Assembly: GCF_000003815.2 (NCBI RefSeq)
Contig: NC_049982.1
Coordinates: forward strand, 13,705,746-13,769,745
Direction of reading: 5' to 3'
Length of the DNA stretch: 64,000 bases
Source of the DNA: Branchiostoma floridae
Taxonomy: Eukaryota > Chordata > Leptocardii > Amphioxiformes > Branchiostomatidae
The notes under the pieces were generated by a model that was given only the letters and a program-made list of their open reading frames with translations, was not told the origin of the DNA and did no database searches. This document shows positions 6,045 to 42,579 of this stretch, piece by piece; within the stretch, counting starts at the first letter, position 1, and each line of letters begins with the position of its first letter. Made by a program: the position numbers and the translations under genes.

Positions 6045-6097
6045 TTCAGGGGAATCAGTGCAATATTCCAATGTAATAATATAGTATACAAATGTAC

Positions 6098-9860: not shown

Positions 9861-12800
9861 TTACTTGGAGACATAGGTGTACGTCCGGGCAGGGGAGCGA
9901 GCGGGCGGGTCCGGCGGGGGCACATTCAGGAAGTCCCAGATCAGTATGGTGTCGTCATGGGAACTACTGACAATCTGGAACTCATCAAACTGTAGTCTGA
10001 ACACCCTTCCAGAGTGCTCCTGCAGGAAGACAACAGATGTACAGCCAACACATTAGCTACACACTTGGGTTTGGTTAGATATGATGCTGTCATCTTGATG
10101 CTGTAATTTTCATCTTTGACCTCATCAACTAAAATACAATTAAACTGATCAACATTAAGAGGTTGACGGTCTACTGGTGATCATGACATAGTTAAGTAAG
10201 CTTCAAATGTACCTCCATGTTCTTGAAAAACAGAGAAGAAAACTTTACAAAAAGAAGCAATATCAGCACTGTCTTAAAATGTCAGAAGTTTGGTTTTTAG
10301 AGTGAAGCATGACATCTCTCACCACTAGGGTTCTAAGGCAAAGGGTGCCAGCTGGCGCTCGAGGGTCCAACGCTGCCTGCAAGTCCCACACCTTGATTTT
10401 ACTGTGAGGAGATGGAAGAGAGATCAGCATGACAAAAACATGAAATTATCCTGAGTCTAGTAAATAAATACCATTATCTTTTATCATTTGTCTTTTTCAC
10501 ACATTTTTTTTTCAAAAACTTTTCTGGTTACAAGCTGAGCACAACATCAGCAACTTATGTACGTCAATTATCTTTTGTAGGACACTGTTAGAAGATCAAT
10601 GCACTGGTAATGCCCTTACCCATCATATGCTCCACTGACGATTCTCTTGTTGTCAAACCTGATACATCTCACCAACTCCTCGTGACCTTCCAAAATACGC
10701 AAGCACGCTCCACACTCTATGTCCCATAACCTAGTCAGGAAAGAAAATAAATCAGGTCATATTGTAACAATACATACAACATTCACTAACATGTAAAACT
10801 CTTTCAATGCCTTGACTTCATTACTTTCACATGAAATAACTCCTATTTCTGATTCATTTGCCATATTTGCCAACCAGCAAAGTTGTCAATTTCAGACACA
10901 AAAATTTTCAATTCAGTTTTCTCATTTAAACTGATCAACATCAATCTAATTTATGAATGAGTCAGTCAAATGATTCTTCCTTCAAGGCCATCATACTATT
11001 TGGAGTGCTAGCTCCTTAAAAATCAAGAAACACCAAGAAGCACAACTGACCTTATGGTGTTGTCTGACGAACCACTGACAACGAGTCTGTCTCTGTACTG
11101 CAGACAGGCGATGCCCCTCTTGTGGCCGTTCAGTGTTCTCACAAACTCACATGTTGATGTGCTCCACACCTACAAGTAAATCAGTACAATCACAGTCTGC
11201 AAGGTGTTCATACATACATGAGGGAAACACAAAGCAATGTGTCATTTTACAGCATGACAGAAATATTTAGTGCTATAAACATTGAGATTCTGAGTTGGAA
11301 ATATGAAACATTCTATTTCCAACAAACACTACTGATGGAAAAGTTCTCAGCCTCACCTTGATTGTCCTATCCCCAGACGCTGATACGATGTACTTGTCAT
11401 CAAAGTCCACCACATTGACGGCAGCCCGGTGCCCCACCAGGACTCTTCTGAGGTTGATGTCTGTCGGGGATTGCATGTCCCACACAGCTATGGAGCGGTC
11501 CTGGATGGGAGACAAGGATTACATCTTCAACACAAGATTCAATAAAGGTGCTCTATTGTCTACTATAGCAATGGTCTGATGTGCACATAAAAAAAAGGTT
11601 CCCCTAAGTAATCTTTTGTCATAATCATGTGACTACTATGAGTCTTTTCAAATCTGCAAATACCACGGTACATTAAAATTATTTTCCTTCCCTGCATATT
11701 CATCTTGTATGACAAAAATGCCTTTACCTTTCCATTCATGTTGCACATACGTTGGGTTAAGTGTTTATGTGACAAGGACATGACCATGTTTTTGTTACCT
11801 TGGAACAGGTGACCATCATGCCGTGCTGAAACCTGAGATGCAGCACAGCCTCGCAGTGGTGGATCAGTGTGTTCACCATCTCACCTGTGTGGACGTTCCA
11901 CACCCTGCAGGAACATCAGGTGTTAGCAAACAGTGATACAGTTACATTACTTACAAGGGCAGGGATTATCAACCAATCAGCACATAACATCATCACCACT
12001 CAAGCTGAAGAGGACTGAGCAATTCAGTTGAAAATTCTAGTGAGTCCAGTCTTTTAAGTTGACAAAGACTTAGGACTTATCAATCAAGGATGGCCAAATC
12101 ATGTTATAACTTATATCATATCCAGGCTCTGAAACAAAATGAGATGAGTTCACTTCCCGCACCTGACTGTTGAGTCGCTGGAACCAGAGATGATGACCTG
12201 GTCGTCGTACTGTAGGCACAGCACCGACCCAGTGTGTCCAGTCAGCACCTGCACACACTCCAGGTTGTTTCTATCCCAGATCTATCACAAAAGAGACACA
12301 ATTCATTTGAGTACAAATCGTACAATATTCCATTTTTCAATTCAAAATACGCAGTGCATTTTTCGGATCTTAGAACAACTAAGACTTTGAGTTATGGACA
12401 ATGAATTTGTTTTCACATTTGCTTTGTTCCACTGAATGTCATCCACTTTTGTATCCACCAGACAGAATGTAACTGTCTATACTGGGCCCTCTTGGGGATC
12501 AACCTTTACAAGTTATAGGGGCAACCCAATTGCCTTCAAATAAAATAAATAGATAAGGTAGATATCAATAGCAATACTTATTCCTAACTTCCTTGGTAGA
12601 GCCAAATATCATTATTTCCATCATTCTGCTTGAGAACACCTTCGGGCACCTGTTTAGGAATCTGTTGTTTTGTACTGACCTTGATAGTGTTATCTCTAAG
12701 TCCACTGACAATCTTGTTGTCATCATACTGGAGACAGTACACCCCCTTGCTGTTCTCACTTCGGCACTGTATCTTCTGTAGGTTATGTCTGCCACACCGC

Positions 12801-15800
12801 CAGTTTGTCTCTATTTGCTGCAAGGGGCAGATTGCAAAGGGACTTATGTTAGACTGACGTCAGATCATTCAACCAAAACAGTTTCTTTCAAGGTAAGAGA
12901 CTGGAAAATGGAACAAGACATAAAGTTTATCTTAATAATGAAACATAATTCATCTAGGGCACAAAGATAAATTGACTTGAATATGAATAAACTGAAGACC
13001 TTTCAAATTATTCATATCGACCCGAGGGTCTCAAAAGACACGAAGTTCTACAAATCACTTTTGCTAAAGAGAGGCAATGATAAGTATACAATGTACCTCA
13101 ATATCTTGTATAATCCTAGGGTACAGTTTGCGGTAGAACTGATGGTTGGGTTGCGTTTCCCCTGGCTTTGGTCTGAAGAGATGTTGTCCCCTGTGGAAAA
13201 AGAAAAAGTAGAATTCATTGACACGAATCAATATGTTCTTGTAAGCAGACTATGATTGCTTACTTTCCAACAATCTCTATTTTTGTGATCACCAGACAAA
13301 CACTGTAAAATCTAAGGACAAAATTTTGGGCTAATACCTGTTATCTAACTCTTTCTCCAATCATATCTCTCAACACTGTTAACTGAAGGGACTACCCTAA
13401 AGATCAATCAATAAATAAATAAACTGTCATGGTTAGAATCAGACTTGAGGGTATGATAAAACAAGGACAAGTTTTACCTGCCCCAATTCCTAGCTTCATA
13501 CAGGATTCAAACATTGAGAATAAAAAATGAAGACAATGTAAAGCTCCTCACCATCCCCTGCGCTCTGCCAGCCCTTTCCACAACGGATCCGTCAGCACCA
13601 TTCTTTCTATTAGCTTCTTCCACAGCATCCCATCAGAGATGACCCGGTACCACTCCTTGCACACCAGCTCACAAGCTGACAAGGACTTGGCGTCCAGGTA
13701 ACTCAGTATTTGTTCTGCTACATGGTCTAGGCCTTTCTCTGCAAGAATACAGTCACATAATCAGGACTACTGGTCAGCCAGTCATGAATATTTGTAACAC
13801 TGTCATAGAATTCTAAGGAATCTAAGAGGGCATCTAAAAAGATCATGGGAATAGAAGGCATCCATTTAACAGACTACAGTCAAACCTGCCCGAGCGACCA
13901 CCTCTTCTCAGCGACCACCTGGCCATTTCGACCGCTTTTTCTCGGTCCCGATTTTTTTTCCTATTGACGTAAGCATTAAGCGACCTTTTCTCAACGACCA
14001 CCTGGCCAACGCGACCGCGACCAGCCCAAATTGGGCCCCTTAACGACCGCATCATTTTCAAAATTGAGGTTTTCATCGATTTTTTATGATAACTAGCGTG
14101 ATTTTGTGGCGAAATCGACCAGTTTGCGTCGGATTTTGACTGCCATTGCGATGTTATGTTTAGAATAAAGATTGCGGCGGTCAATGGGTGGGTCAATGGG
14201 GCAGTCTACTGTAATATGGGAAGAAATTTCTAAGAAAGATCTGTGTAGCTCATACCTTTTAAAGAAAGATCTGTGTGAGTGCTTTTGTCCAACTGTACTG
14301 TACATTCACCCTTGGGTAAGTACGCGATTGGGACGTACCAGGCATAGAATTCGTAGTTATTTCAGATACGGCGATCAAGAACACATCGACGCATAAAGGC
14401 TTGTATGGTAACTGACAGCATCAAAGTTCCCTTACTGTCTAAAACGTTAGTCTACAAATATTATACTGTATCGTATAAAAGCTGGGGTTAAATTTACAAT
14501 TTACAGTGTGCGTGTTGTATTTGACATTAAAGACCTCGCTTCTTTGCGTGCGTGCAGTGTGCTTGCTATTTGCCATTAAGCACAACGGAAACCGTTATAC
14601 TTTGCATAGGGCATGATTTGAGTCGATACTCTTCTCAGCGACCACCTGTCCAAATCGACCGTTTTTGTCCGGTCCCCCGGGTGGTCGTCTTGGGCAGGTT
14701 TGACTGTATTAGTTTTTAACATCAAATGCAGTCACAACAGTATCAACAAATACAAGGCTGTGAAAAGGCTATATTGGAAGGTTTCCCAGGGCTGTCACCA
14801 GCTTTAGTTTTTTCCAAGCTTACAAAAAGGTAGCATAAGCTAATAAAAATGTATTTTCATGTCATAAAGTTAACACTAATGTATGTCAACTACTTTTGTC
14901 CATCCCCAAGCAAATTTCTATCTCGGAACAATAGGGCTGGTCCTGTTGACAGCCATGGGTTTCTCTCTCTAGCTAGGAAAATGAAGGCAGTTTAAGTAAT
15001 GTAGACCTACTGGGTAATGCAGTAATGAAGTCTCTCTGCAGCATGGGCTTGAGGAAGGCATTGATATGTCCATGCTGGTAGTGGCACATTCGAGATATCA
15101 GTTGCTCCACAAAGTCCAGCTGGTCCTGTTCTGACCATTGTTCAAAGTACTTAACACACAAGTCTCGCTCCTCCTCAAAATTCTCGGGCCGCTCTCGCTT
15201 TTTCTGGATTGGCTGAGCTAGGATGGTCATCTGTCGTAACTGTGCATATAAAATAAATTCTACTATTAACAAAACTATTCACAGTTTAAGCCAACAAGAA
15301 TCAATGTACATGTATAACAATTACTGCAGAAAGACTTTGATACACATAAAATATTGTGTTGGACATGAACTGCACTTAACTTTAAGTCTTCTTTCACTTC
15401 GAATAAAACTGCTTGATATTATTATCAATGCTATGTTGAATAACTTGCATTTTATTCAAGCTGAAAGTAGTTGGTCAGTAGTATAAATTTTACTTAATTG
15501 TGATCATTGTTAGTGTTTAACATTCTGTTGTACTAGTGGATAACAGGGAACATAATCCTTGCAGACATTTTTAAAGCTTCAAGCCAGGCAGTCTATCTCA
15601 GAATGACTTCCATGCTGTGTCACCCCATGGACTGGCTGCATTTTAATCACTGAGTAGTCATGTGATCAATATTTATCCAATCAGCATAGATCTACTTTGT
15701 TTACCAAGGTCTGCATTTTCATCACTGGTACTTTGATCGTCTTGAAATACAGTCCCCCTTTGATGCAGTAGAATATCAGCATAATAGCTTTCCTTCTAGA

Positions 15801-18800
15801 TTTTGAATACTACCATATGTATGCTGGACTCTTAACTTTAGTTGGTCTGGCCCAAATCTTGACTGATAGTGATAATCACGGGTTATTAACCGGTGATTAT
15901 CACAATCAGTCAAGATTTGGGCCAGACCAAACTTATATATGTTGTGGGCAGACTTCAGTGTTCAAACAGTTTCTTTGTGAATTACATAAAGTCTTTTACT
16001 CAACTCTTTTCCACAAATTCTCTAGGCAACAGCTTATAACTACATGTAGATTTACTGAAGATTTTCCATGATCGTGCATTTCAAGTCATTGCAAATGCAC
16101 AAAATGTAGATCTTAAAACATTTACTGGTATACCTTTCAGTTTCCAGAGGGCCTTGTTTGTCGGATGTGAAAAACTGTTTCTATTCAGAATTCAGTCAAA
16201 CGACAAGAGGTCCACAGACCACTGCAAATCCCCTCCATTTTATGCCATCTTGCTGCCCTAATCAATTGTTTCTCTCAAAATCAATAATATTGCCTGGGCA
16301 GCCTGGCACACTCCCACTGATAATTGAAAATCTATGACACAAGGAAACGTCTTAGCTTTTACTAGTTTTAGAAGCCTTCACAGAATCTAACTATTAAAGT
16401 TCTACAGAAATGCCTTTTCTCCTTTCCCCTTCCCAATATGCCTAAATCATGTCACAGTCTACAAATATCTCTTTTCATGTGAGTAGAGCATCTGGCCCCT
16501 TAAATGGTCCACTGGGCGTACAGAAGTCTCCTTGTGGGCAAGTATTCTGTATTGATTCCACAGCCACAAAGGCTGCAAGTGAACCCAAATTAATGAGAGC
16601 CTTGGCACTGTTTCAAGTACTAGAAAACTTGAGTTTTCCCTGGGAAAGGCTCCAGTTTCAAAGAAAAATCCAAAGGCAAATCTATTCCAGCCAACAAACA
16701 GCCAAGTATCCCTTTTTACAGTTAAACAAAGGGATTGAAACGTGTCAGCACCAGCCAAATGGTGCACGTAGATTTCAAAGTGTTGAGGCTCAGTCTCCTT
16801 GGTAACACATCCACTGGTACCCAGTTGTGATGTTACGTGTTGTCTGTGCTTTGTTTCTTAAATGCAGGGTTCTCCCCAGAATTTTTTAGTATAGTGGAGG
16901 GGCTGGCAAAAATAACCTGAACCAACACGCTGCGCTTCCATGATAATAGGTTCATTTTGTAATGACAGAGGGTGTCAAATACTACAAGTAGAATGTATTA
17001 TACTTATAGTGATTCCTTTGTTGTGAAGTGGCAAAACAACTATTGTTTTGATCATTCACAAGTTTTTGCAGACAATGCTGACTGGAAAAGTGATGCCACT
17101 TGGCACAACAATATGTGAATTTTCATTAATTTTAGCAAAACTAACCAAGGAAATAGGGAAGAAACACACTAAATTTCAAAAGGAGTATAGTGGAGCTGGG
17201 CTAGAGTATAGTGGAGGGCCTCCCTTATTCCATCCTCTGGGGAGGACTCTGTTAAATGCAACTTACCACTGTAGTCAACAACTCTTACCTTCAGCTAGTG
17301 TATATATATTTGTGTTTAGAGTCAGCTTTCAATGAAGATATGTATTAGAAAGGACCATATGACTCACACACCTCAGACAGAACACAATATTGACACACTG
17401 TCTGGCTCAATGGCCTGTAGCCAAGAACTCTAAGAAGACAACTACAAGTGCTAGTACTTCTTTCAAGGTGTAATGTATCTGAGGACAAATCTTTTTTGCC
17501 ATTCAGGAAAAACAAATCACATTTCTTAAATCCACTTGATTTATTACTGCAGTGCAAAATCTTTGATCTGGGCACAATGTTGTGATTATTTGTGGGGTAT
17601 CCCTATCAGGCCCAACATATTGCATCCAGTTTGAAGTGACATGTTGTTCATGTACTGTCCATGCTTGTACATGATCTCTAGAAGACTGAAAAAAAGCACA
17701 GCATGTAATGCGGCAAAGCTAAAGGTTAAAAATGTCATTATCAAACATGCTAGTTCCATGTTGTTCTGATTATCATAATACAGGCTAATCTTGACTTATC
17801 TTTATTACAGGTTTCCATTTCATGTCACTATGCAAAATATGCTTTTCAGTAAACAACTTTCCCCACACTTTACAAGTCTACTTGGTCCTATTACTATATT
17901 CAGCACAGCTAATTGGGTCCTTGGAGAATCGAGAAGCAGCTACTGGGTACTTATCAGATCCTAGTTGAACATCCATATGAAATTTAAATCATGCAATGTT
18001 GCAAACAGTTACAGCCCTTTGTGACAATATGTATAGACATGTCAGCCAGATTTCATAGGCTCAAGGAACTGTAGAGAATACGAACAGTATTTTTCATTTT
18101 TGCTTTCAATGCTTTCACATTCTGGGAGACAAATCTGACAAAATACCTTTATAATCCAAGGAGGTTAACCTCCTTGTATATTTCTAACAATGTATCCAAA
18201 GTAAGTAACATGTAGTATAACTTTGCCGCAACTGCCTGTGGTCAATAGTGCAAACAGAAGCCATCTTGCATGACTGAAGGAAGAAAAAATACCACGAACA
18301 CCTTTGTGGCATTATGTGGGGCTGAAAAGACAAGTTCTGCATGAGAAACAAGGGTAGGTACCTTTGTCAATTTGGAATATCAGGCATTCTGAAGGAGTTT
18401 CATTGATTCATTGTAGTGTTTGAATACATCTATGGTATTCCAGAGAGAGGTATGGTTAATGTGCTGGAACATAGTTTCGAAGAAAACATTTATTCTACAT
18501 TTTATAAAACCCTCTCTAAGGCTTCTCAATTCTTTCTTAATGAAGGCTTGCTCAATACAATCATAAGAACAGTGCATATGTGCCACTGATTAATTTGACA
18601 ATTGGGTAATTCTGTATCATCCCAGTATTCCTACAGCTTAAAAATTTGTAAAAATAATGTCTTTCCATCACAGTAACCATGTCAACAACAAAATCCATCC
18701 CCTTTCAATCATCCAATTATTACTTTGCTGATTGAAAGGGGATGGAAATATGGTAATTTTTGCCATCAGAATACCAAATGGAATATTCAACTGTGCAGCC

Positions 18801-20502
18801 CAATCCCAAACTCTGAGCTTGTATTGAGGCAAACCACTATGCAGACAATGAAACAAGTTTGTTGCTGGATAATCAAGAGTAAACAAACAAAGTAAGACAA
18901 CGGCTCATATACTAGTATTAAGGTGTTTTACACTGAAAAAAAAAGACATTCTCTTATGTATCGTAAACATATTGCATTTGCATCTTTACCATGCATAATT
19001 CATGTAGCTTCATCCATTAAAGATGGTTATTCTGTAACTTGTCAGCTGATTATTCTCATTGTAACAATGTACACATTCATGCAATTATACTACTGACAAT
19101 AATTGATGGTAGACATTCCATTTCAATAATCCAAAAATAGTGCTGAAATTGGTTAAGTCCAACCAAATTTTTCTTTTTGTGTGAGGCAAACTTTACCTTA
19201 GAAATTCACTTTCAAGTACAGGATGTTCATGATTGTTCTGTTTTATGAGTAATGCCTGATGTTTGCCTTGTTTGGAAGTGGTCCCAGACAAAACTGTTTC
19301 AATTCCATCAGCTTGGATAATGCAATTATGTGATCGAACGATAGTAACTCAAGGTCTGACTTAGTGACTATCTGTTAAACAAAAGCAAGACTTCAGTCAT
19401 AAATTGTGCCTGAGCCAGTCAACTGAAAGCATCCATTTGGTTCAGTTATGTCTTACGATTATTAATCCCCAGCAGTCTTTCAAGAGACACATTCAATTTG
19501 ACAATGGTAACACTTCAAACAAACTGTGTAATTCAATAATATGTTTCGACTTCTACACATGACAAACTGTAATTGAATTGGAAAATTGAAATAAAAAGAA
19601 TGGTAGGTATTTCACCCAAAACAAGCGTTAACATTTTAAGACTGTTGTAGTCTATTTCATAAGCAAACTACAAGTGTCTGCAGTCATTATGAAGAGGCAT
19701 GACTGCATAAATCCATCGGACTGAATAAAAGTATGGTATTAGACGGTAGACCTGTAAATGCCTTTGATGTGTTAAAAGCGGTTCACAATACAGAAACAAT
19801 CTATACACACGAACCTGACATGGAAAGTGCCAGTATATCGTACATGAATCCCATTTTTGAAAAGGGCAACTAAAATATAGGTATACATACTAGTAATTTG
19901 CTTAAGGGAAACTACCACGTCACCCCCCAAAAAAATATGAAGAAGGCAAAATACCCACTGAGTCATTTCCTCTCTTAAGGTTTCCTTACATTTACACCAA
20001 TGGACACCATGTGGTTAACCAACATTTGTGTTTTCAAACAATATGGGACCGAACACAGAAACCTAGCTCTTGATCAGTGATAGGGTCACATTAAACTCAT
20101 ACAATAGCGCATAAAAAAATTACTAGTATGTGATGTCTGGGTACTCCTTGGTTGAAGTCGCAGGTGTCCACATCAAGCAGAGTTCTCGTTTCTGACGATT
20201 GGTCGACAGACACAAATTCTGTCGGATATCTAACACACAGTGGTATAAAACAACATTTCTAAGACAGAACATTTGAAAAGCCTTTAAATTTTTGTTGTTT
20301 GAAGAGTTTTCGCCCAGCAGAAAGCACAGGCCACCGCCCTTTGTTTACCCCTACCATTTCCTGCAGACGGAAAATCTATCATGGCGGTCGTTGACCAACA
20401 GTGCGAAAACTCGGCAGAAATTTGGCGTCAAATTCTGGCGTGACATGGACAACTCACCTTCGTTTCTTCTATTTTTTCATCTCCTATAGTGTCTGTTTCC
20501 AT
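9861..20502 (-). CDS. BTRC/FBXW11: Beta-TrCP (F-box/WD40 subunit of SCF ubiquitin ligase)
   Basis: Twelve exons in transcription order: 20458-20502, 15011-15239, 13552-13738, 13097-13190, 12680-12817, 12163-12281, 11799-11904, 11357-11500, 11051-11169, 10620-10730, 10323-10401, 9861-10019. They total 1530 nt, or 509 aa plus TAA, and every splice phase agrees. Domains: the D dimerisation segment is at about 37-75 ([20 protein letters not shown]), the F-box at about 92-140 ([18 protein letters not shown]), and seven WD40 repeats from about 190 to 500 ([47 protein letters not shown]). The F-box binds Skp1 and the propeller binds phosphorylated DSGxxS degrons on substrates such as beta-catenin and IkB. 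The start METDTIGDE resembles that of Drosophila Slimb. It is a single gene of pre-vertebrate type, head to head with PBDC1. Confidence 0.97.
13877..14706. mobile_element. pogo/Tc-type MITE in a beta-TrCP intron
   Basis: TA at 13875-13876 is followed by CAGTCAAACCTGCCC. The inverted GGGCAGGTTTGACTG ends at 14706 and is followed by TA. TA duplication and CAGT-type ends fit the Tc1/mariner-pogo group. The subterminal motif GCGACCACCT recurs several times at the left end and inverted at the right. A tandem AAAGATCTGTGT repeat lies at about 14236-14277. No transposase frame survives. It lies between coding exons 2 and 3. Confidence 0.85.
15842..15930. mobile_element. Hairpin MITE, about 38-bp arms
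   Basis: TTGGTCTGGCCCAAATCTTG and the rest of the left arm (15842-15879) are complementary to 15893-15930, with few mismatches and a loop of about 13 bases. This is nearly a fold-back element. No transposase is present and no target duplication was confirmed. Confidence 0.7.
16866..17251. mobile_element. hAT-type MITE
   Basis: The ends CAGGGTTCTCCCCAGA (from 16865) and the inverted TCTGGGGAGGACTCTG (to 17251) match in 14 of 16 positions. TTAAATGC flanks the element on both sides (16858-16865 and 17252-17259), an 8-bp duplication as expected for hAT. The phrase AGTATAGTGGAG occurs internally near both ends. There is no transposase frame. Confidence 0.75.
18694..18746. repeat. Short hairpin, 18-bp perfect arms
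   Basis: TCCATCCCCTTTCAATCA at 18694-18711 is exactly complementary to 18729-18746, with a 17-base loop. It lies in the first intron of beta-TrCP and is probably a remnant of a small inverted-repeat element. Confidence 0.7.
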
Positions 20503-21049
20503 GATATAGTCTTCCGGCGGCTCCAGGGTCACGGATTTGCGAACAAAACGGAGGAAACGGCAGCAAACAAGAACTACAGGCGGTTTCTCCTCAGAAATGG
20601 CAGGGGAAGAACTTGTGACGTCAGAGATCTCGCATAATCTCGCACTGCCCGAGATCAGGATTACTTACCACATAGAAACCTTACCTCAGCAAACTTGCCA
20701 TTAAAATCCATAGAACCCAAGTCGATTACTTTCGGAAGACTTTCCGCGGTTACAATTTCTATTATAGCCATAAATAAAGCTGCAAAATAAACTTAAGTCA
20801 AGAGTCACGTGATACGAATGATTTGGTTCAACCATTTCTATATTAGGGGTGAATTATTGGTATGACAAATTTATCACGGCAATAACTGCAAATATTTGGA
20901 TCAATAACCTGACATTGACCACAATGACACGCTTTTTAATAATCTTTGCTACTATTTTCGATTACATCTATCATAATCTAGATTATTTACACATGATTCA
21001 AAGAATTCAATCCAGAAAACCATAATAAACTCTTCCACTTCAGCTCAAC
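20503..21049. promoter_or_regulatory. Shared bidirectional promoter region of beta-TrCP and PBDC1
   Basis: The two start codons face away from each other 547 bases apart. Between them are a CRE (TGACGTCA, 20616-20623), an E-box palindrome (TCACGTGA, 20805-20812) and CpG-containing stretches with repeated 'tctcgca' near 20625-20645. No TATA box is obvious. The layout fits a compact housekeeping divergent promoter. The exact transcription starts are not visible. Confidence 0.6.
20685..20771 (-). CDS. Candidate alternative first exon of beta-TrCP
   Basis: On the minus strand an ATG at 20769-20771 opens 29 codons (MAIIEIVTAESLPKVIDLG and on) to a GTAAGG donor after GAG at 20685. It ends in phase 0, the phase needed to splice to beta-TrCP exon 2 at 15239. 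It lies upstream of the METDTIG exon in the same promoter region. Vertebrate BTRC and FBXW11 also use alternative N-terminal exons. Coding status is unproven; it could be an upstream ORF in a 5' UTR. Confidence 0.4.
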
Positions 21050-24018: not shown

Positions 24019-24226
24019 CTAGCAGATATTACATGTGCTATAACTGCCTATTATGTGTGAATGTATTGCTAACTGTACTGTTGTTTAGGATTCCACATTA
24101 CTTTCCTAAATTAGCATAGCTAAAATACTGTTTTTCATTTTTAAAATATGCATCCACCATTGTATATGTTCAAACAGCAATCAACAAGTTTTAGTATGCC
24201 CAGTTACCTGAGTTAATGGCATTTTT

Positions 24227-24268
24227 ACCTCCATGAAATGTCATGGAGGTTATATTTTACCCCGCGTT

Positions 24269-24299
<31 letters not shown>

Positions 24300-25300: not shown

Positions 25301-25449
25301 TTTTGTATGTAACCTTAACCTTACATTTGCGTTGGGATGTTTTTCTATTCCCTTTGCGCGAAACTAGGCAAGACTGTGGTCTGCCTGAGAATACAACTAT
25401 TGTTGAACCTCACAGTGACAAAAACAATGTCAGCCATCTCTGGAAATGT

Positions 25450-25455
25450 TTTATT
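25450..25455 (-). terminator. Candidate poly(A) signal of PDCD4
   Basis: AATAAA on the minus strand, 3 kb downstream of the PDCD4 stop. If used, it implies a long 3' UTR over 25440-28431. Nearer hexamers may be used instead. Confidence 0.3.
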
Positions 25456-28431: not shown

Positions 28432-31400
28432 TCACTCCTTGATGCGGCCACCATCACCCTCGCTGACGAAGCGCTTGCGGGCCCTGAGAGAAAATATCAA
28501 CAGGTGAATGCTGACTTTTGGCCCATTGAATAACAATGAAAGGTGGAATGGTACATAATTGGTTTTCTCCCCTTTTTTTTATCAAAATAAAAGGCATAAG
28601 AAGCTCACAGTCTGGAATAACATGCACACACACACACAAGAATGTGTCAAACTGTTAACTGCAGTATCAGTGACACCCTAAAAAGGAACCAGTATGGAGA
28701 ACTGCTGACCTGATGGGCACCTTGGCCTTGGTGCGACTGTTGATGACTCCCTGCTTGAAGCACTCCTCAGAGAACCTCTCCAGGATTGTGTGGGCATTGG
28801 GCACATCAAGAACTATGTCAGGCATGGACTCAAACACACGGTCAAAGCCCTGCGAAGGAAGAACATGCACACCATGAAACAACAACAACTGGTTGTCCAC
28901 AGACATTCTTAAACTTAGCTCAATTTAAAGCAAACCCCACCCTTTCTACTGCTTTTCATTGAAAAGTTAATTGTCTTAGGTGAACTGAGAAGTGTTGCTC
29001 TTTTGAGTATCACATCCTAATCTCATTTATTTATTTATTTAGGGTTACCCCTAATCTCATTACTCTATGAACACTTGACAATCACTTCAAGACACAACTG
29101 TTCAACAAAACACTGTGTGGCTTGACATATCAACTGAGATACTCCTTTTCATCCCTATCTTATCACCAGTAGATAGCTATTTCAAACTTTTGTAAGCTAT
29201 CACAAATGGCAGCATCAATGGCAACAATTGGAAAACCTACTCACCCTGTCCATCTGGTCCACGGTAAGAATGATTGCATCAGCGAGAGACTTAAGCAGCA
29301 TGAGGATTGCAGTGCCCACCTGTTCCGACCCTGCCTCCAGCACAGTCACCACGGCCTGGAGGAAAACATTCATTTCATTTCAATGTACCAGACCAATCTA
29401 CAGAATTTTGTCCGTCACTCTCATTGTTTTGGAGACAATTTTGTTGATTTTAGTTGTTTTAACAATTTTATCATTTTGCTTGCACATCACTACTGCCCTC
29501 CGTAGTCATGTCTGTTATTCTTCAGCATATTTAAGACCATACTCGCATGAGCATGGATACATGTATCATTTCCAACAGTTTGATTACAAATTAGTTGTTA
29601 TGGTGTTGTGCACCACGGGCATGATTCTAATACAACACTGACAAACAATCCAGCATGAAATTGGATGAACTCCATGTCCATTACATAACAGTGGTGCCCC
29701 ACCTCATAGACGAGCTCATGGTGGAAGTGTGGCACCTCCAGCTCCACCAGACAGCGGGTGGCCTCCTGGATGTCCCGGGAGGACAGGTACTCCCTCAGGA
29801 GCATGTCATCTACAGGCACAACCACAGATGAAAACAACTTTATTTGGAATGTTTATTTACAGGCAAAACATTATTCATCTACAGGTGAAAACACTAATGA
29901 AAATAACCTCAAACATCCATATCTGTACTGTTGTAGAACTGGATTTAACAACATCTCACATTTTTTTTGTTAATACTGCACTTTCATGGTCAAAATTTTT
30001 TTGGAAAGCCATTCCTGTTCCTGCACAAACCTCTCACCTAGAAACATGCTTGACTTTCCATGTCACTAATGGAAGTCTCAAAGTCTCAATGACTCTCAAG
30101 TCAGTATAGATGACAGGTAACGAAACCCAGTTGTCAGTCAAGTAATGTACTATAACATTTGAATACAAGTACAAATTCTGTGGATACCAAAAATGTCACT
30201 AAGAAAACAATATGTAACCAAACATCAATCCCTTGAGAGCATTTGGTAGCTCCCAACACACTTTCCATTACTGCACTCCACTGTTAGGTAACCAACATTA
30301 CTTAACAAAACTTATGACCCCCAACTAGCACACATCGTCCCCAAAAGGTTGCTTAAACTGACATGAAGGCCTACATTAATGTTTGCTTGACCATCCTTTC
30401 CTGAACTTGAAAAACCACAGCACACACATGCCACCTACTAACCTTTTTGATGAGGTATTTGACAGGTCGCTGGCCACCACCCACGCCCCAAACATTGTCA
30501 AGGCGAACCATCCCATGTTTCATACTCAGCAGCACATGGGCACGGTCCAGTGCCGCCCTGTGATGGAAACAAGCTTCTTTTTAATAGTTTTCTGTTTTGT
30601 CATCTCTTCTAACACATTCTTGAGTGCTAAACTAAATTACAAAAACATAGGGGAAACATTGTTTGTTGCAGCCTATCAATCTACAATTTTTGCAACTTGG
30701 CCAGATACCTTACAGTCCCTTTAACAGGGCAATCAACAGTTCCATAACAGTCTGATAACGTTACAGCATGACTTCTGTCCTTTCCAACACAAACAAAGCT
30801 CTTAAGGCACAACAGCAGCCTGATGCTAAGTACTGCCTCCTTTCCATCTTTTTTAAAACTGTTTTTTCTTTCAACATCTTGGTAAGAAAATAATTTGTAG
30901 AAGAAAAGTGGCAAAGTCTGCCATTTGGGCGACACTCACTGAACACCTTGAGGGAGGGTCGCATCAGTATTACTGGAACAAAAGACAACAGAAAATATTC
31001 AAGTACATGAAATCACTGCAACACAGCCTGCGGTATTTTTTTTAAACGAAATTCATAGTAATACACTGAACAGAGCAGACCGTTGCAAAAAGTTTATATT
31101 TGATCATCAATAGGGAGACTTCGGAAGTAAAGATGATCCACAATTCAATGACTTATTTGAAACTGACATTTAATCATCAAAAGGTGAGGAATTGATTTTT
31201 TTCTTAACTTTCAATCGTAAGTTTTTTTTCACAATTCGGTCTCAAATTGATAAATGGCTTTATAAGTTGTTGTTTTTTTGGGGGGGGGGGGGGGGGGAGA
31301 AGAAGGCAAAAACAAAGCATCAGCCCGATGTTGCCCCTTGCTTGGATTTCCACTCAACACTCACATCATCTGTTCCGAAAGCCTTGACCCTTCACTGGAA

Positions 31401-34400
31401 GACAAAAACGGAACGGACTGAACATGACATGCTATGCCCACAGAAAGGAAGAGGGGGAGGGGTTACAGATGGAAACCAAATCACTCCACACTTTTTATTC
31501 ACTTGAAGGACGGTAACTTTAACACTGAGAAGAGTTAAAGACAGACTTATAATGCATGATTTTGGGTATTTTAGGACCCAAACTCACACACTTCGATATG
31601 GGAATGTGATGTGTGAAGTGGGGCTGCATGGCACCAGCAAGATGTACAGCGTAGGCACCCTGTACTCCATGCCATCTAAAGATAGGTTAAACTGCATTGC
31701 AGCAGTATCTTGGTAGGACTGGTTTGTCATTAACATATGTATGGTTAGCACACAGAATGATCACAATGAAGGGTCAGGACAGTAAGGCAAACATAACACT
31801 GTTAGTTACAACTGACAAGCACAAAGCAGCCACTCCTCCATTAATTTAGTGACAAGGACACGTACCTGGTTTGCGTGGATTCACCACTTCCCTTGTAGTC
31901 AGTGACATACTTGGGAGGAAGCACGTCATCTGCTACAGCCCTGGCAATGAAGGACCCCACCACCTGTGTGTGCAAGTCAGAAACATTCAACTGTTTGGTG
32001 CACCACCTAGCAGCATCTAAAGAAACTGCATTGTACCAGGGTAAGCTGGTAATGGTATCATATAGGCAACATTCATGTTTAACATTTCTATGGCATTACC
32101 ATCCATTCCATAACATACCAGCTTTGAAGGTACAAAGGGACGGGTGCAAACATGACCATTGCATAGTTCTGAGTTTGCAGCGACATAACTCACATGTGGA
32201 GCATCAGGAGTGTCCAGGGTCAGGTCCGCCAGGTCATCCAGGATGGAGTCGAAGGCAGTGGCCATCTCCTGCTGGTTCAGGATATTCCCGTACAGGTCCG
32301 AGATCAACCGCGACGTCATCTCACGGTGAGAGTCGTGCTTGTCAAGGGCCATGCTCACAGCGTGAGTCGCAATCTGAGGTAGAGGGATTGGCTGGTGTTA
32401 ACCCTTTTCCAGAAAACTTTCTGAACATCTCGGTTTATGTAAGACAGCATCAACTGTACACATGCTACCTTTATAAAAGAGCAGACTCTGCATCAAGAAT
32501 GTGCCCCAGAAAGACCTCCCACACAATAGCCATGGTAACATCTTATGTCTGAAGATACTGGAACTAACAGGGCTTCCTCAGCACCAGGAAATTAGGTTAT
32601 TAACACAGGTGGTATGGAGAACCCACTCAATAATTACATCTCCTGAGGAACCATTCTTCTGGGACTCGTGCCTGAGATGCACATAAAGGCTATTACATAT
32701 GTAGCCTCCTTGTTCCTGCACTTCTTTTTAATGCCAGGTCAGTACCTTTCTTGTTTGTGGTACAATGCCAGCTTTACAATAGAACTTTATGTAACAAACC
32801 CAAAGGGGCAACTTAATGAACAGGAGCATCATCATTTTTAGAGCTGTTCCGAGAAGTCTTGAATCATTTTCCTGGAACAGCCATGACCTAACGTTCATGT
32901 TACCTCAATGAAGGTTAGACGGGATCCTTTTTAAAAGTTACTCAAGCGCATGGATAACTTATTTTTTCTAGGTTGAGAAATCTTGCAAATCCTGTAAAAC
33001 ATTCACACTGTAGCAGAAACACTGAAAATAGGTCTGACTGGTCATCACCTCATGCTTCTTGTGCCCAAGGTTCAGCTCACCAAGTGTCACCTGCAAGGGA
33101 AAAGAGGATGTAGGGATTACACAAAGGGGAATCACAAGCTTCTTCTGTCTGAACAAAACATCACTTGCACTACTGTACAAGGACCTGAAATTGTGGTTTG
33201 CAGGACATAACAAATTTGACAACCCAGGCTCTCTTCCACATGCTGCCAATACCTTAAGATCTGGGCAGCCATGCATCTTGTCATACAACAGCTTTTTGAC
33301 AGACTTTATCTAAAAAAAAATCAGCATTTTCCTAATCTATTGTGGTCTAACGAATTTTCTCCCCATCTTGACTAACTTGTAAGTGCATAAAGCCCATGCA
33401 GCCTTGCTTACGTAATGTAGCTTAATGGCTCTTTAGCAAGGAAAGCCAATACTTACTGCAACTTCATTTGTGTCTCCATGTTCAAAGTACTCCTGAATCA
33501 CAGGCTTGATGGTCTTCTCCACTTCCTCTGGCGTCAACTCCGGAGCAATGGTCTCCAGTTCATAGTTACCCTGAAGGGAAAATCGTCCCTATTAACAACT
33601 TCAAATGTACTACTCCATCAAGTGGTTACTACTGCAGCTTCTCCACTGCCTAACCCCTAACCAATAGAAATCGGTAGCTAATCAGCTACTTCAGTGTGCT
33701 GAAGGTTAGTGGTAGAGGCTGTTGAGAGATGGGTGATGGCAGTGTAGCATGAAGGATGTTCCCTCTTCCTATAACATGGTAGTCTGGTTGCTGATTTTCT
33801 TCTTATACTTCTACAAGGTGTAGAGTACTTTTAGCATGAACATCTAGCAGCAGGGAAATTCACTACTGCGATTCTACTATAACCAACAGGGTGCCTGCCT
33901 CACTGTAAATACTGACCTGAGCATCTGAGTCGTAGTTGGGATCCTTCTCATCAATGACCCCATCAATGTCCAGCTCACAGCCAGGCTTCCCCCAAACACC
34001 CTTGCCTCCAGCTCCACCTGCATTGTACAAAAGATCATCAGTAAATTACAAACACATGTAAATGATACACAATCAATCTTTGGTGGTCAAAAATGGTATT
34101 ATCAAGAGACAACAATGCATTATACATCGTACATACATACATGCATCAGTTATGGCTATTATAAAATCTATTTGAAAATAGTACATCTCTTTATACATCT
34201 GCACTATGCATACCTTAGCATAAGTAATACTTTAACATCAGTATCTATACCCCTGTTGTTGTCGAGGTGTGTGATATTGACAATATGAACACCTGTATAA
34301 TTCTTGTACTTTGTAAACCCTACATGAAGGGCAATCAAACTTTCCTTTGATGTACAAGTCATATAATTTATAAACACTTTTGTTTTTTTTAGATTCTGAA

Positions 34401-37400
34401 ATAAAGCACATGTGAGAGACAGCTATTTGATGGTCAAACCAAAGCTGCAACTGTGCTTTACTTTAATACTTAATGCAACCACAACTACCAATGTGTATCT
34501 GTGGAAAGCCTCATGTGGTAAAACCCTGCAATCCAACCCACTTCAATTTATCAGAAGTGAGCTTACTGCAGACTGAGTGGGGCTAATGGGGTTGCCTAGC
34601 AAATAAGACATTCTGAACTCAAGACATTTACTTAGCCTAGAAAGCTTAAAGTTATAGTTTCACCGGAACATGCTGTGGGTCTTAGGCCAACAGTGGCTTC
34701 TGATGTTTGGTCTCCAAACCATTAGCCAACTCAGGAAAGGGTGAATAAACATCCCCCACTGCTGAACAGTTCTCAGAAACTAAAAACGACTTGAAGTTGT
34801 CATGTCAAACTTTTATTGTAGACAGGGTAATTTATAACATAAAGTAAGATCTACTTTGTACTTTGTACCTATGAATGGCAACTTTGTTTTGAATCATGCA
34901 TTCAGTTTACTTTAACTTAGTTGTTAGAATTGATATGCCATTTGATTGTATCATTTCATTAGTTAGCAAGTCCATTGGTTTTCCTTATTTTCTTGCATAT
35001 CTATAATGGTAAGTAAAAACATCAAGCACCTAAATATACCAAAAAATTGTGGCGTGTGTGTGTGTGTGTGCATGCGCACGCGTGCATGTGTTCTGATAAA
35101 GGTTTATCCTATTCATTCCCACTTGGTTGACCTATGGTGGTCAAATATACTGCAGTTTCCATAATGGGGTGATAAATCATGATGATCGTCGATAAACCAT
35201 GATGATCACCAAACACCTCAAACCAGCCTAATGTGACATGGGAAGGAAGGGAAAGAAATGTCCCCAACAAATGTCACCTGTCAGATAGATAAATCTAGTC
35301 ATGAAAATAGCTAGGCTCAAATATTTACGATTTCTTATAAAGCTTCTGTGCGACCCGACCTCAGTATGACTCTAGATGGCACTGGGTGTTGTAAACATGG
35401 TGTTACGTGACTCCATGGGTCAGGTCATATGATCAGACACACCCCATAGACATAAACTGGTCTCTAGAGCTGTTTACACAACACATAACATTGTAGTCCT
35501 GTACCAGTTTTACAAACGTTTCAACTGAGCTGATAGAAAAGTACATTTTCAGATCATATGGCATTTCATGCACATCATTCTGATTCTTACATACAGGTTA
35601 TTATTAAAAACATGTGAATGTTTGGTATGACAATGAATTTAATGGACTACACTTCAAGAAAATCTGTTAATTGTTGGAAACATTTCTTGATTCGACTTAA
35701 TACGGCATTGTTAAATTTATTGAGGTTGGTCTGAAGGACATGTTTTCAGTTTGCTTACTGCTACCTTATAAAGTCAACAACTGGGCTTACAATGGATTTT
35801 GTGGCTACAAAAACGTGCTTTGACATAATTGATGATTCTGAAATGCTGCATTGTCTGCTTTGCTTTTTAAATGGGACACTAGTTCACAAGTTGGCTAGCC
35901 TGACTAGATTCTAAAATGCTCCTATCAGCCAGCCCTCCAGTCATTAACCCCAGCCAGCGACTAAAAAGTTGGCATGCTATTGCAAGATCCTGACGTCTCA
36001 AAAACTAGGAACCTGCTCCCCCCTCCACATTGGAACCATCCAGCCACCCAGTTTCAATTGAGTCACAACAACAACATTCTGGGTCATACATGTAGGTAGT
36101 CTGCACCATACTCCTTTCCCCTACATGAAGTACAGTAGAAATTGGTCATACATATCTTCTACTTCTAGATACACACACAGCTTTTCTGGCCAACTACTCA
36201 ATGTTATGGCCTCTTTTCTCAATGTCTGTTATGATCTTATTTTCAACCAGGAAGGGAATCTGGTGGAGACTAGAGGTCATACAGAAGTCACTGATCAAAA
36301 CAACAGCACCATGTGACTGCCCTACCACATGTCCCCAGTGCAATAATAGGGCTGTTAAGTGTCATGAGGGCAGATGGGTTTCTCCATAAATAAATTTCAA
36401 AAATATTGGTTATTTTTTACAGCTACAGCCTATCAAATTTATGGCAGTGTTATTTCTATCTTGATATTATCATTTTCTTTAGAAACCTACGCAATTTTCC
36501 GGAGTCCTTTATAAAAAACATGATTAGGAACATCAAACCTCCACAGCCAAATAAATCAATTCACCCTAGATCACCCTGGAATGTATACCCGGGGGTTCAA
36601 ATGCCACCTGTCTCAAACCTTTCACATGCAATAATGTTATGTTTTTCTTGTTTGCCCAAGATTAGTGTGAATCTCCATAGCTTGATTCAAACGATTCAAA
36701 CTCACTTGCATGGGCCGCTGCCAAAATTTGAACAACAATTCTTCAAGACTTCAACCAAACTGTCAGGCTGCCCGGTTCTTTTGCATGAATCTGCAAATAA
36801 AGTTATCGATGCAATATGCATTAATGTCACGTATTTTTCGTGACAAAGTTGAGTTTCCTCGGTTTGTCATGATGTAAATAAAAGACAACCATATTGTCCT
36901 CTGTCCTGGCCCTCCCTACTTCCGGCAATAGGGAAAGAAAGACCACATGTAACAGCTGTTTACAGCAGCAGAGAAAAACAGCTGCTGCAATGCCTGTGAT
37001 CATTTATCAACCTGAAGACTTTCATCAGACACAGGGGACATCTGAACTCATGCCCGTAGCCAGGATTTCGGTTGGGGGGGTTCTTTTTAGTAAATGTGGG
37101 ACCATCGAGCGCCGCAGGCGCGAGACTCACGCCGAAGGCGTGAGGTACCTAGGGGGGTCCGGGGGCATGCTCCCCCGGAAAAAATGAAATTTTGACCCTC
37201 TGAAACGCCGTTTCCTGCATTTTGACCGTCAAAAATCGCTTGCGAAGTTTAATGGAATTTCTATTAAAGGACAAGGCTTTGAGGCCAACTCCCTCAACAT
37301 ATTTTCACCATGTCCGACACCAAAGGCGTGAGTCGTCGCAATGGAGGTCCGGGGAAATTTTGAAATCTGGACCCTCTGAAAAGCCATTTCCTGCACTTTC

Positions 37401-40400
37401 TGGGGCAAATTTTACTACGATTGGCTGAAATGTCTATCAAGGAAAAATGCAAATCAGTCATGCCTTTGAAAAAAAATCTTGGACATGAAAAAGTGGACCT
37501 TCGATCCTGAAAAAGCGGACCTTTTGAGCGAGTGGGGGGGGTTCTTCCGAACCCCCCGAACCCCCCCTGGCTACGGGCATGCGTTCGCAACAGCTGAGGG
37601 CAGTACAAAAATCATCAAGGTCTTCTTGGAAGCATTCACCAAAGTGAAACCTTTATGTCAAATACAATTCTGCATTTAGATAACAACTTCATGTACCATA
37701 CTAATCAACAGGGTTTCTTGCAAAATAGTGTTTTAAAAATGCAGCCCTATACAATGTTGAACTTGTATAAACTAAAAGGATAAGATACTTTTATCACATA
37801 ATGTACATGCAAACTGAGCTATTTTTAATGTGACATCATCGCATCCTGGATATGCTAATGACATGTTCAGGCTTTATCAGCTGAAATCTCCACAGTACTC
37901 CTGGAGGGCATGCTGGTTGATGAATCCAATACTCAAGGAGAATATATGCCATGACGCACATCCAAAGGCAGTTTCACATATATCTATGGGACATGGTCCC
38001 CGCATCGTCATTAAAACTATACGTAAATTCACACTAAAATCATTTCAGTGTAAGCTGACCAGCAGGTTAAATTATACTTAATACCACCTTGACAGTACAA
38101 GTGTTTGATATGTCAACTTAGCTTCCAAACTAATTTTTTCAGTTGAACTTGACCTCTTCACAATTCACCTATGTGTGTTTTATCCACTGGGTGAGTATGA
38201 AATTTTATTGTTTCAAGTCATTGATGTTTCAAGTCTCTCCTAGGTACTTGTTGAATGTTGGGCTTACCTGCTCATTTTCCCATGGTGTGTCAACAAGAGA
38301 GCTAACAACTGTAATAGTCCAGCAGGCCTACCTAACCTATATTGTTTGGGCTATGTATGCATCAGACCTACAACAATATTCACTTGTTCACCATGGTGCA
38401 TGGCACACTTGTGCAGGGTTCTTGGCAGGTACCTACATTCTGTTGACTGTCTGGACTCCATCCTGACTGCTCTGTCAACAAAAACATTACCTATAGGCCA
38501 AGGACAAACCCATTTGCATTAAGTACACAACTTCAGAAGGATACAAAGAGGCCACTATTTTTCTAACCAACTTGGCTGCAGTAAAAACATGTGCATATGC
38601 CAACTGAAATTAAAGCTCGGAGTAAGTATCATATCAGGAAAGACCTTTTATGAGGTTGTAATATTAACATCAACTTTATTAGAAACGTAAACATAAGTGC
38701 TATTGCTTCTTTGTAAATAAACAAAAACACAAGTACATGTTATCATGTGCCATCTGGAATTTCTCCATCTCCAAGTCTGAATTCTTCAAGTGTCATCAGC
38801 TGGATATATGCCATCCTTTCAGAATACCTGGGGTGTCAGGAACACAGGATACTTGCCTGACCACAATCCACAGTTTTGTCCAAGGGATGTTTCTTCAACT
38901 ACAGCATTGTGCAAATTACTATAACAATTTCCAAGAATTATGTCCTTTTTCTGTCTAGGGTTTTAACCTTTTATGCTGTCTTGCTTATATTGGCAGAAAA
39001 GCTATTTTCCCCATTTCTTATGGAACAGCAGCCAAACAACACATGACCTACTTTTCTAACTTTAATATTCATGAACTGTGACAAGTGTTAGCCAGACAGA
39101 AAAAAGTCACTGACCTCCTGTAAACTACTTCCTTGAACATGTAATTTGAAGATGAGACATGTTACAAAGTTGGCAAGAAATCTGATACATAAAAAAGATG
39201 CCATATTTGTATATTGCTTTGTTGTTGTTTTTTTACACAAAAACTTTCAATGATTACTTTTAAATACCCATAGATCTATTTCTATCCAAAGTATTATTTA
39301 AAAAGTGTTTCACATGATGTAAGTAGGTCTGTTCTGACATTGGCCTGAATTGCTATATTTGTCAAATGTCCTTCATCTTAATTCTTGATACCCTTGGTCA
39401 TGGCTGTGCACCAGTCCTGGACTCTAACCACCTTATCAGATTTGTACTGTTGCCCTGGAGGGCATGCATGAACAGATAATAATACCATTAGACATGCCCA
39501 TGACCCAGTTGAATATTGATGAGCTCAAGTCAAACCAACAAGTATCAATGAATGAAAAGAAACAAAAGTAGACATATCACTACAAGTTATAGTATGTACA
39601 GAAATCTATCAGGGGCAGAACAGCCATCTTGTAGTAAAAAAAGGTCTTAATCTTTTGTATATCATTGTTGGATGTCCATCGTCACTTCGATGATGACATC
39701 ATCGTATATCATTATCAAGCATAAAAAACACAATATGAACTCAGCTATTCTGACAAGACCCATTTTTCATGTCAGTTGGCAAATGGCTTGTTGGCCTCCA
39801 CCTAGAAAAAGTATTGGGAAAACAATTTGGTGACCAATTCTGCCACAGGATTCAGACCCCTGGGAGATCCAATGTAATTTACCTGCATTTCAGACAGACA
39901 GTAAACCTTGTCATGAACATTTGCAGTGAATGTAATTATACAAACATGATCAGTCCAGCATGTTTACCAATAGTTCTTTTGTTATATGTTACAGTGAGGT
40001 TCCCAAGTCTCTGCTGTCCTCTCTGCAAGCAACTCAGGAGCCTGGATTCGATTCTCTGGAGCATGGAGACTGTTTCTACTTGCCTCTTGTGTTTTTCTGG
40101 TTCCCACATTGGGGATCAAACCCAGCCTTGGCCATGAGAGTGGCAAACTAGAATTGAATCAGTGGGTTTCAAGTGCCACCAACTGACCAGTGCAATGGGT
40201 CTGGACCTTTTGGCCTAGCGGTTTACGGCATTGGTTTGTGGACTTGCTTTGATTCCCGGGAGCCAGGAGACTGGTTCTGCTTGCCTCTTTTGTTTCAATT
40301 TTTTTCTTAAACTAAAGATCCACAATCCATGCATTTCATGACATACACTCTATCATTAGAATATGTTTAACCACGAAAGTTTCCAGCTCAGTTATTCTTC

Positions 40401-42579
40401 TTTTTTTGTTGTTGTTGCAAAAACTGCAAAACTTGTCTACTGGGTCCTGTCTCCAAAGCAGGTTAATCCATTCTATAGCTACAGACACCTTTTAAAGCTT
40501 TATGCATGGTCAAAACAAGTCTTGGCATCAGTTACCCTTCTAGGCCTGCCCTGAAAAGCTCTGTCCATTTTTAGTGCAGATCAGGTGTCCAACATAGCCA
40601 TTGAGCTGTAGAACCACCCATACAAAACAACTCTTTTGTTCAATTGGTTTAGGGTGGAACTGCACACAACTCATGGGGTCAAAGAGTAAAAACTGAATGG
40701 GGCATTGGACTTCAAACCACAGGCTGGCATTATGCAGGTATATTTTGGGAGATTCAAATTTACTCTTTATATATTTCTTAACAATTATTGACAATTGTGA
40801 AAACGTCTTCACAGAACATCATCCTGTTTACATTGAACTACCGGTAGAAGTAGTGAATTGAATGTTACAAACAGCATATCATAAGGCCTTCATTCAGAAT
40901 ATCATTGTTACAAACATGGCCACATGTTCAGACCTATCAGCACATCTCTGACAAATCACGTCTCACAAAAGACAGGATCTGCTGACTTGACTATTGTCTT
41001 CTTTGCCAGCTTTCCATTGAATCAGTGAGCACTAAAGGAAGGGGTCAGTTCTTTCATCACAAAAGCTATTTGTGTGGTGCTATGATGTCAAATCTTTGTA
41101 GGTAAGACTATGCTTATACATTTTGAACATTTTCTTAGCATTTCTTGTTATCATTTTTTAGCAGATAATGAAATTTTTTATACTGTCATGATCCTGCCAG
41201 GTGTGTCAAAAAGTCAAATGCTCACTGACATTTACTGAACACACTGGTAGTGGTAGCTTTATGCTTGAAAACAATCAACATTGCTATGGCTAACAAGCCC
41301 TCATGTACATGATGCTGAGGGCTTGAATGCAAAAAAAGGACAATTTTCTAACTTACTAGCTTGTCAACTTGTATGAAATAAATAAAGTTCAATTGCTTAA
41401 ATTTATAACATCAGAAGGTGGGCTAATAATATCCAGCTCGCTTTTCCATAGATCTGCAGCAATGTGACAATGCTCAAAAGTATCCTCAACAACATTCATA
41501 CTCATAGTTTTAAATCAATCAGAAAAGCTTTTGAAATGTAGAAAATACCATGTTTTAAAGTATTTACTAATTTTAGCAGAAGACATTAGATTGTCATCTT
41601 TTCTTTAGAGTCACTAAAATCAAAACCACTCAGAGGGTAATCACTGTACATGCTGTAAACAAGGAAACTAGCAAACTTCACAAACTATAAATACTTCACT
41701 ATTTGTATGTGGTTGACAACGTAACATTAACAATTAACATAGTTGTGGTTGAATTGCGAGGCTAATGTAAAAGTGAGGATGATGTCTGGGGGCAAGTGAC
41801 GTGTTTTGATGCAGCCTGGAGGCAAATTCCCCCACTCAACACAAGTGTGGCATTAGGGCGCCACGTGGTCAGGGACTTGGGCTTGTTTGGCAACAAAGTC
41901 CATCAGTTTGTGCACAGTCAGCTGAGTTGAGGAAACCCCGCAGACGATAGTAGAAAAACAACAGCTTAGCACATAACGACTTTTTGTTACAGCAGTGCTA
42001 GGAAATTTGACGATGCCTTCGCACAATACCGTCCGGGACAAGAGCAAAGGCATTTAAATGTACGACTTCGTGTTTGCATGTCAATACATGTACCGCCTGC
42101 ATGCTGAGCAAAAGCGCGCTCAGCCCACCGCGTGGCGTGAAAAACATCCAGCCCTGTCTGGACATGACACCACATTCTCTAAGCGCATACATTCCAAAAA
42201 CAACAACAATATACCACAGCTGACGCAAGTTTGTCAGCAGCCAACCTTTAGACAGACTTTCTTGTTCTGTCAGCTGCACGTATTATTGTTTACCTTTCTT
42301 GGGGAGCCCCCGTCCGTAGGATGTGCGGGACTTGCGGTCGTATCGCGGCTTGGATCGACTCAGTTGGCTGACATTCACGCCGTTGGTCAATGGCAGCTGC
42401 TGGTCTTCCTTGCTAGGGCTTCTCTTCGCCCTGCGCTTGGCCTTCAGCTTCGGTCGGAGGTCGTTGAGGTTGGGAGAGGCGGCGGGAGAGTCGGAGAAAT
42501 TCCCATCCACCTCCCCTTCGACCTCGCCATTTTGTTGGAAAACTTCCACTTCAGGTGAGAGGACGTCCCCGCTTGCCAT
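28432..42579 (-). CDS. PDCD4: PDCD4 (programmed cell death 4, MA3-domain eIF4A inhibitor)
   Basis: Twelve exons in transcription order: 42294-42579, 33917-34017, 33457-33570, 33253-33309, 33049-33090, 32194-32373, 31866-31963, 30439-30557, 29703-29809, 29245-29355, 28710-28849, 28432-28483. They total 1407 nt, 468 aa plus TGA. The N-terminal ~100 residues are basic and disordered-like, ending [16 protein letters not shown] as in vertebrates. MA3 domain 1 spans about 140-270 ([35 protein letters not shown]). MA3 domain 2 spans about 325-450 ([23 protein letters not shown]). The C-terminus has [11 protein letters not shown], the conserved basophilic kinase site. MA3 domains bind eIF4A and block cap-dependent translation. 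A 57-nt exon at 33253-33309 inserts 19 residues in the first MA3 domain. The donor of exon 8 is ambiguous. Confidence 0.95.
31280..31297. repeat. G18 homopolymer
   Basis: An 18-base run of G in a PDCD4 intron follows a T-rich stretch. The length may be unreliable from sequencing, and on the transcript strand it is a C run. Confidence 0.9.
37049..37581. mobile_element. MITE with 16-bp terminal inverted repeats
   Basis: CATGCCCGTAGCCAGG at 37049-37064 is exactly inverted at 37566-37581, and runs of G and C follow inside each end. The phrases GACCCTCTGAAA and TTTCCTGCA occur twice (about 37195 and 37372), showing an internal duplication. Superfamily and target duplication are not clear. It lies in the PDCD4 first intron. 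Confidence 0.8.
39995..40310 (+). repeat. Two diverged SINE-like copies
   Basis: A segment containing GGATTCGATTCTCTGGAG, GGAGACTGTTTCTACTTGCC and a T-rich tail (about 40050-40105) recurs at about 40240-40305 as TTTGATTCCCGGGAGCC, GGAGACTGGTTCTGCTTGCC and TTTTTTTC. The second copy starts with TGGCCTAGCGGTTTACGG, which could be an A box. The pattern suggests old tRNA-derived SINEs in PDCD4 intron 1. Confidence 0.45.

Follow-up and report, generated by a model that had tools for sequence, protein, structure and literature searches.

A beta-TrCP gene and a PDCD4 gene lie near each other in Branchiostoma floridae, where PDCD4 lacks the canonical beta-TrCP degron by sequence

Background

Recognition of human PDCD4 by the ubiquitin ligase beta-TrCP requires the degron D70SGRGDS76 and is primed by S6K1 at S67 within RLRKNS (PMC6539695), and both of these motifs, the S6K site and the degron, fall within residues 39-91 of the protein (PMC3462793). 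Here, we analyse a stretch of 64,000 nucleotides from the lancelet Branchiostoma floridae (assembly GCF_000003815.2, contig NC_049982.1, positions 13,705,746 to 13,769,745; hereafter the window, with positions counted from its first letter), in which genes for beta-TrCP and PDCD4 lie close to each other. To judge from the sequence, the ligase is conserved in this animal and the recognition signal in PDCD4 is not. The locus is probably a row of three unrelated conserved genes, explained by inherited linkage and local shuffling and having no role in the turnover of PDCD4.

Of the human genes of the beta-TrCP type, BTRC lies at 10q24.3 and FBXW11 at 5q35.1 (PMC10487276); they are described as hallmarks of the Lbx/Tlx loci, which are paralogons of human 10q and 5q (PMC2446394), and PDCD4 is placed on human chromosome 10 (PMC6596451). 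The latter source reports that the neighbourhood of PDCD4 in the lamprey was not recovered close to the genes of jawed vertebrates. Chordate linkage groups are reported to have kept the linkage of their genes, with the gene order inside them largely scrambled (PMC7269912). In amphioxus, 25% of neighbouring protein-coding genes (3,950/15,884) are reported in bidirectional promoters (PMC6292497).

Results and discussion

The initial annotation of this DNA had presented beta-TrCP and PDCD4 as near neighbours, both of them complete, and the spliced models, Pfam and matches to solved structures in the PDB confirm the identities and the order (Table 1). The three coding sequences were spliced by hand from the window, and every modelled intron is GT-AG. 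The order along the window is beta-TrCP (-), PBDC1 (+) and PDCD4 (-); the stop codon of beta-TrCP ends at position 9861, and the ATG of PDCD4 begins at 42579. Beta-TrCP and PDCD4 share a strand and are 7,929 bp apart from the start of the former to the stop of the latter and ~22 kb apart from start to start, and PBDC1 and PDCD4 lie tail to tail with their stop codons 4,413 bp apart. The sole run of N in the window (8462-8561) is outside all three genes and the linkage is therefore without a visible scaffold join.

Table 1. Coordinates of the features described, in window positions
Feature	Position	Strand	Remarks
beta-TrCP gene (BTRC/FBXW11 type)	9861..20502	-	12 coding exons, 509 residues; spliced model
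beta-TrCP coding exons 1-6	20458-20502, 15011-15239, 13552-13738, 13097-13190, 12680-12817, 12163-12281	-	
beta-TrCP coding exons 7-12	11799-11904, 11357-11500, 11051-11169, 10620-10730, 10323-10401, 9861-10019	-	
Head-to-head spacer, candidate bidirectional promoter	20503..21049	.	547 bp between inferred beta-TrCP and PBDC1 start codons; CpG observed/expected ratio 0.99
PBDC1 gene	21050..24018	+	6 coding exons, 176 residues; spliced model
PBDC1 coding exons	21050-21076, 21973-22038, 22739-22798, 22977-23120, 23313-23424, 23897-24018	+	
PDCD4 gene	28432..42579	-	11 coding exons, 449 residues, two MA3 stretches; spliced model
PDCD4 coding exons 1-6	42294-42579, 33917-34017, 33457-33570, 33049-33090, 32194-32373, 31866-31963	-	
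PDCD4 coding exons 7-11	30439-30557, 29703-29809, 29245-29355, 28710-28849, 28432-28483	-	
PDCD4 first coding exon	42294..42579	-	counterpart of RLRKNS and DSGRGDS region in 8xxl_CD; both motifs absent
Complexin gene, parts of two coding exons	58147..59946	-	Pfam Synaphin, E-value 3.8e-23 on two joined pieces

The predicted beta-TrCP combines a D domain, an F-box and a WD40 propeller in one protein. Pfam recognizes Beta-TrCP_D with 87.7 bits (cut-off 25) and WD40 with an E-value of 1.4e-52, the F-box family itself being absent among the matches listed for the proteins (25 of 46). The top solved relative is F-box/WD repeat protein 1A (PDB identifier 6ttu, E-value 4e-293), to which residues 12-509 align unbroken with the F-box region included, and a further match, to PDB identifier 1p22, starts at residue 81. 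Over the F-box and WD40 regions, 373 of 429 aligned residues are identical to 1p22, and given that the WD40 part is identical at 274 of 297 positions the ligase side is intact. The first coding exon (15 residues) and its start codon were placed from reading frame and splice site only, with homology beginning at residue 12. Intron 2 of this gene contains an element of ~830 bp (13875-14708) with terminal 20-nt inverted repeats (95% complementary) and a CpG observed/expected ratio of 1.15 in the bin 14001-14500, which looks like the remnant of a DNA transposon.

PDCD4 has two MA3 domains behind a basic stretch (Pfam MA3, E-value 2.5e-50, two stretches), and its top solved relative is PDCD4 itself (PDB identifier 8xxl, E-value 1.5e-134), with homology from residue 18. 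An in-frame stop precedes the ATG by 54 bases, and at the junction of exons 7 and 8 the reading frame is preserved only with a donor that looks weaker (gtaggt, not gttagt). A stretch of ~540 bp in intron 1 (37044-37586) carries terminal 21-nt inverted repeats (95% complementary) and resembles a miniature inverted-repeat transposable element.

PBDC1 is identified by its Pfam family (E-value 9.6e-55 over residues 34-157), and its top solved relative is YPL225W (PDB identifier 2jyn, E-value 8.6e-30). Its first coding exon (9 residues) and start codon likewise come from frame and splice site only, homology beginning at residue 26. An open frame beginning MAGEEL at 20597 (+) was considered as an alternative start and dropped by eye, the ATG at 21050 being the one that GT-AG splicing connects in frame to the conserved exons. 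Behind PBDC1, the sequence at 24240-25290 is repeat-rich, with a TG run and, within 24100-25500, 4 pairs of imperfect inverted repeats.

That PBDC1 alone stands between the other two genes, as had also been claimed, agrees with a scan of the interval. Of the 91 open reading frames of at least 64 residues listed at 14.8-42.0 kb, 18 overlap modelled exons and were excluded, and the other 73 were searched one by one against Pfam, by which no gene besides PBDC1 was found between beta-TrCP and PDCD4. Baculo_p48 (E-value 0.0043) and Reticulon (E-value 0.0081), matched by one of the 73 frames each, were taken as chance.

The description of PDCD4 as a known substrate of beta-TrCP stands for mammals but, by sequence, does not carry over to this animal. 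A motif scan of the 449 residues of PDCD4 found no DSG-x2-4-S phosphodegron, the canonical mark of a beta-TrCP substrate, and the N-terminus has no RxRxxS site of the S67 type such as precedes the human degron. Where the PDCD4 of the window differs, the solved chain 8xxl_CD reads AKRRLRKNSSRDSGRG, with the remainder of the degron aligning to a gap. Identity to 8xxl is 15/57 over residues 18-78, 23/31 over residues 79-110 and 186/335 over residues 111-448. An alternative PDCD4 exon carrying the degron was sought in the minus-strand frames of 28432-46000 and none was found, no frame there containing D/E-S-G-x2-4-S. RxRxxS/T occurs just once in the protein, as RKRFVS at residue 435, a C-terminal site resembling S457, which is kept. 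The canonical S6K/beta-TrCP route to the destruction of PDCD4 is thus probably absent in this animal, or operates via another site.

Several observations weigh against so simple a view. The nearest degron-like motif, DSPAAS (residues 30-35), might represent a variant degron. When the first 92 residues of PDCD4 are shuffled, a DS[GP]x2-4S pattern turns up in just 3.6% of cases, so that the motif is not clearly a chance occurrence; a looser match, SDAQGNYE, is seen at residue 126. The degron consensus has a Gly after the first Ser, unlike DSPAAS, and yet some beta-TrCP substrates are described without DSG, such as SMAD3, and others, CDC25A and B, with DDG motifs (PMC10487276). As such substrates exist, PDCD4 could still be one of them and the negative result is not final.

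We tentatively raise the possibility, which we regard as less probable than its converse, that PDCD4 is here without the S6K/beta-TrCP switch, that vertebrates gained this switch later in a fast-changing N-terminal region, and that the two genes were neighbours before their products were ligase and substrate. If true, vertebrates would have invented the control of PDCD4 stability by mTOR-S6K, or else its absence here would be a lancelet loss. The locus provides a testable point on when PDCD4 came under the control of S6K and beta-TrCP.

The same evidence bears on whether the arrangement could be functional, with the genes held together and ligase and substrate co-regulated in one chromatin domain. 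The 7,929 bp between the two genes, their common strand, their intact coding sequences and the relation known from mammals (PMC6539695) are all compatible with such an arrangement, but the N-terminus of PDCD4 is without degron and S6K site, the human genes are ~10 Mb apart by the figure of the initial annotation, an oppositely oriented PBDC1 sits between the two, and the anatomy of the locus pairs beta-TrCP with PBDC1 instead. We consider a functional neighbourhood very improbable, and nothing was found to suggest that the beta-TrCP/PDCD4 spacing has a functional meaning. The case calls for caution, since a ligase beside its mammalian substrate looks meaningful and yet the known recognition signal is absent from the sequence.

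Judging by the gene arrangement, beta-TrCP is likely to have PBDC1, and not PDCD4, as its regulatory partner. Beta-TrCP and PBDC1 diverge from each other, their 547-bp gap has a CpG observed/expected ratio of 0.99, and the bin 20501-21000, with a ratio of 1.06, ranks 5 of 125 bins, the median being 0.26. Any promoter that beta-TrCP shares would thus be shared with PBDC1 and not with PDCD4, and the pair probably shares this one candidate bidirectional promoter. Tempering this assignment, four other bins of the window exceed the spacer bin in CpG ratio, one of them (14001-14500) inside the element bounded by 20-nt inverted repeats, and the start codons that set the length of the spacer are themselves inferred. 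The bin adjoining the start of PDCD4 (42001-42500) has a ratio of 0.95, in keeping with a separate promoter for this gene.

In human, PDCD4 lies at 10q25.2, PBDC1 at Xq13 and CPLX2 at 5q35.2, and with PBDC1 on the X chromosome the triplet would not have been kept in the human line. This matters for a second alternative, in which an ancient triplet was conserved by a bidirectional promoter of beta-TrCP and PBDC1, or by intronic regulatory elements, for reasons unrelated to PDCD4 turnover. The X-chromosomal position of PBDC1 would imply that the human lineage split the pair and argues against it; the head-to-head pair with its CpG-rich spacer speaks for it. Moreover, 372 putatively ancestral bidirectional promoters have been inferred, most of which were lost in vertebrates (PMC6292497), and absence of the pair in humans would for that reason not refute it. 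On balance, conserved microsynteny appears unlikely.

Gene order being scrambled within linkage units, near adjacency of the two genes is not expected to be ancestral, while their linkage at the chromosome level plausibly is. The human 10q and 5q positions, together with the complexin gene in the window, fit one ancestral linkage group. A literature search on PDCD4, BTRC and synteny jointly found nothing. If 20,000-30,000 genes in random order and 50-150 substrates are assumed, any known substrate lies no more than two genes from its E3 ligase with a probability of 0.7-3%; for a single specified pair sharing a chromosome (700-1,600 genes assumed), the probability is 0.25-0.6%. These figures are weak evidence for anything, since the pair was selected only afterwards. 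In favour of pure chance, by which genes of separate ancestral linkage groups met in the lancelet line, are this rough random expectation and the selection of the pair after looking. Complexin in the same window would, however, fit the 5q35 paralogon of CPLX2. The location of both genes on human chromosome 10 (PMC10487276, PMC6596451) also speaks against pure chance, which we hold to be improbable.

We therefore return to inherited linkage with local shuffling as the probable explanation. The ancestors of beta-TrCP and PDCD4 would have been on one chordate linkage group, and hence are on one chromosome now, and shuffling inside this group would have brought about their present closeness, which would have no part in PDCD4 turnover. 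Beta-TrCP and PBDC1 would be transcribed divergently from one bidirectional promoter, and PDCD4 would be a separate unit, arranged tail to tail with PBDC1 and having its own promoter near 42.6 kb. Adjacency may, on the other hand, be conserved in other lancelets, hemichordates, echinoderms or gar, which would count against this explanation. Taken as a whole, the finding is an ordinary one, that of two well-conserved animal genes near each other.

Neighbouring features

The flanks were scanned with Pfam over 146 of 152 listed open reading frames (at least 52 residues in 1-9860 and at least 58 residues in 42600-64000), which gave Synaphin (complexin) in two frames, a Death domain in one and two weak single matches, SWC7 (E-value 0.0034) and CENP-W (E-value 0.008), each in one of the 146 and taken as chance. 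The conserved parts of complexin run from 59946 and from 58323 down to the first in-frame stop, and a simple pattern look identified no N-terminal complexin exon in the window. The Death-domain exon (5643-6041, +; Pfam Death, E-value 5.8e-07) is preceded by an open reading frame of 331 residues (3116-4108, +) with no Pfam match at an E-value of 0.01, and the two possibly belong to one immune or cell-death gene. An Rfam gathering scan of the window gave no match and a tRNA scan found none.

Relation to described systems

The complexin gene near beta-TrCP in the window is reminiscent of the Lbx/Tlx paralogons, human CPLX2 being on 5q35. The beta-TrCP gene itself is common to the locus and to these paralogons at human 10q24/5q35 (PMC2446394), and PDCD4 shares its human chromosome with BTRC; unlike them, the 219 scanned open reading frames have no Lbx, Tlx, Fgf, Npm, Kcnip or Slit family among their Pfam matches. 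With respect to the bidirectional promoters reported in amphioxus (PMC6292497), the pair described here is set by inferred start codons and not by mapped transcription start sites, but it is similar in its head-to-head arrangement, 547-bp spacing and CpG observed/expected ratio of about 1. The mammalian SCF beta-TrCP/PDCD4 pathway, with its S67 and D70SGRGDS76, differs in that the PDCD4 of the window is without the N-terminal S6K site and the DSG degron. It is alike in that both proteins are present, the WD40 part of beta-TrCP is nearly identical, and PDCD4 keeps the two MA3 stretches along with the C-terminal RKRFVS.

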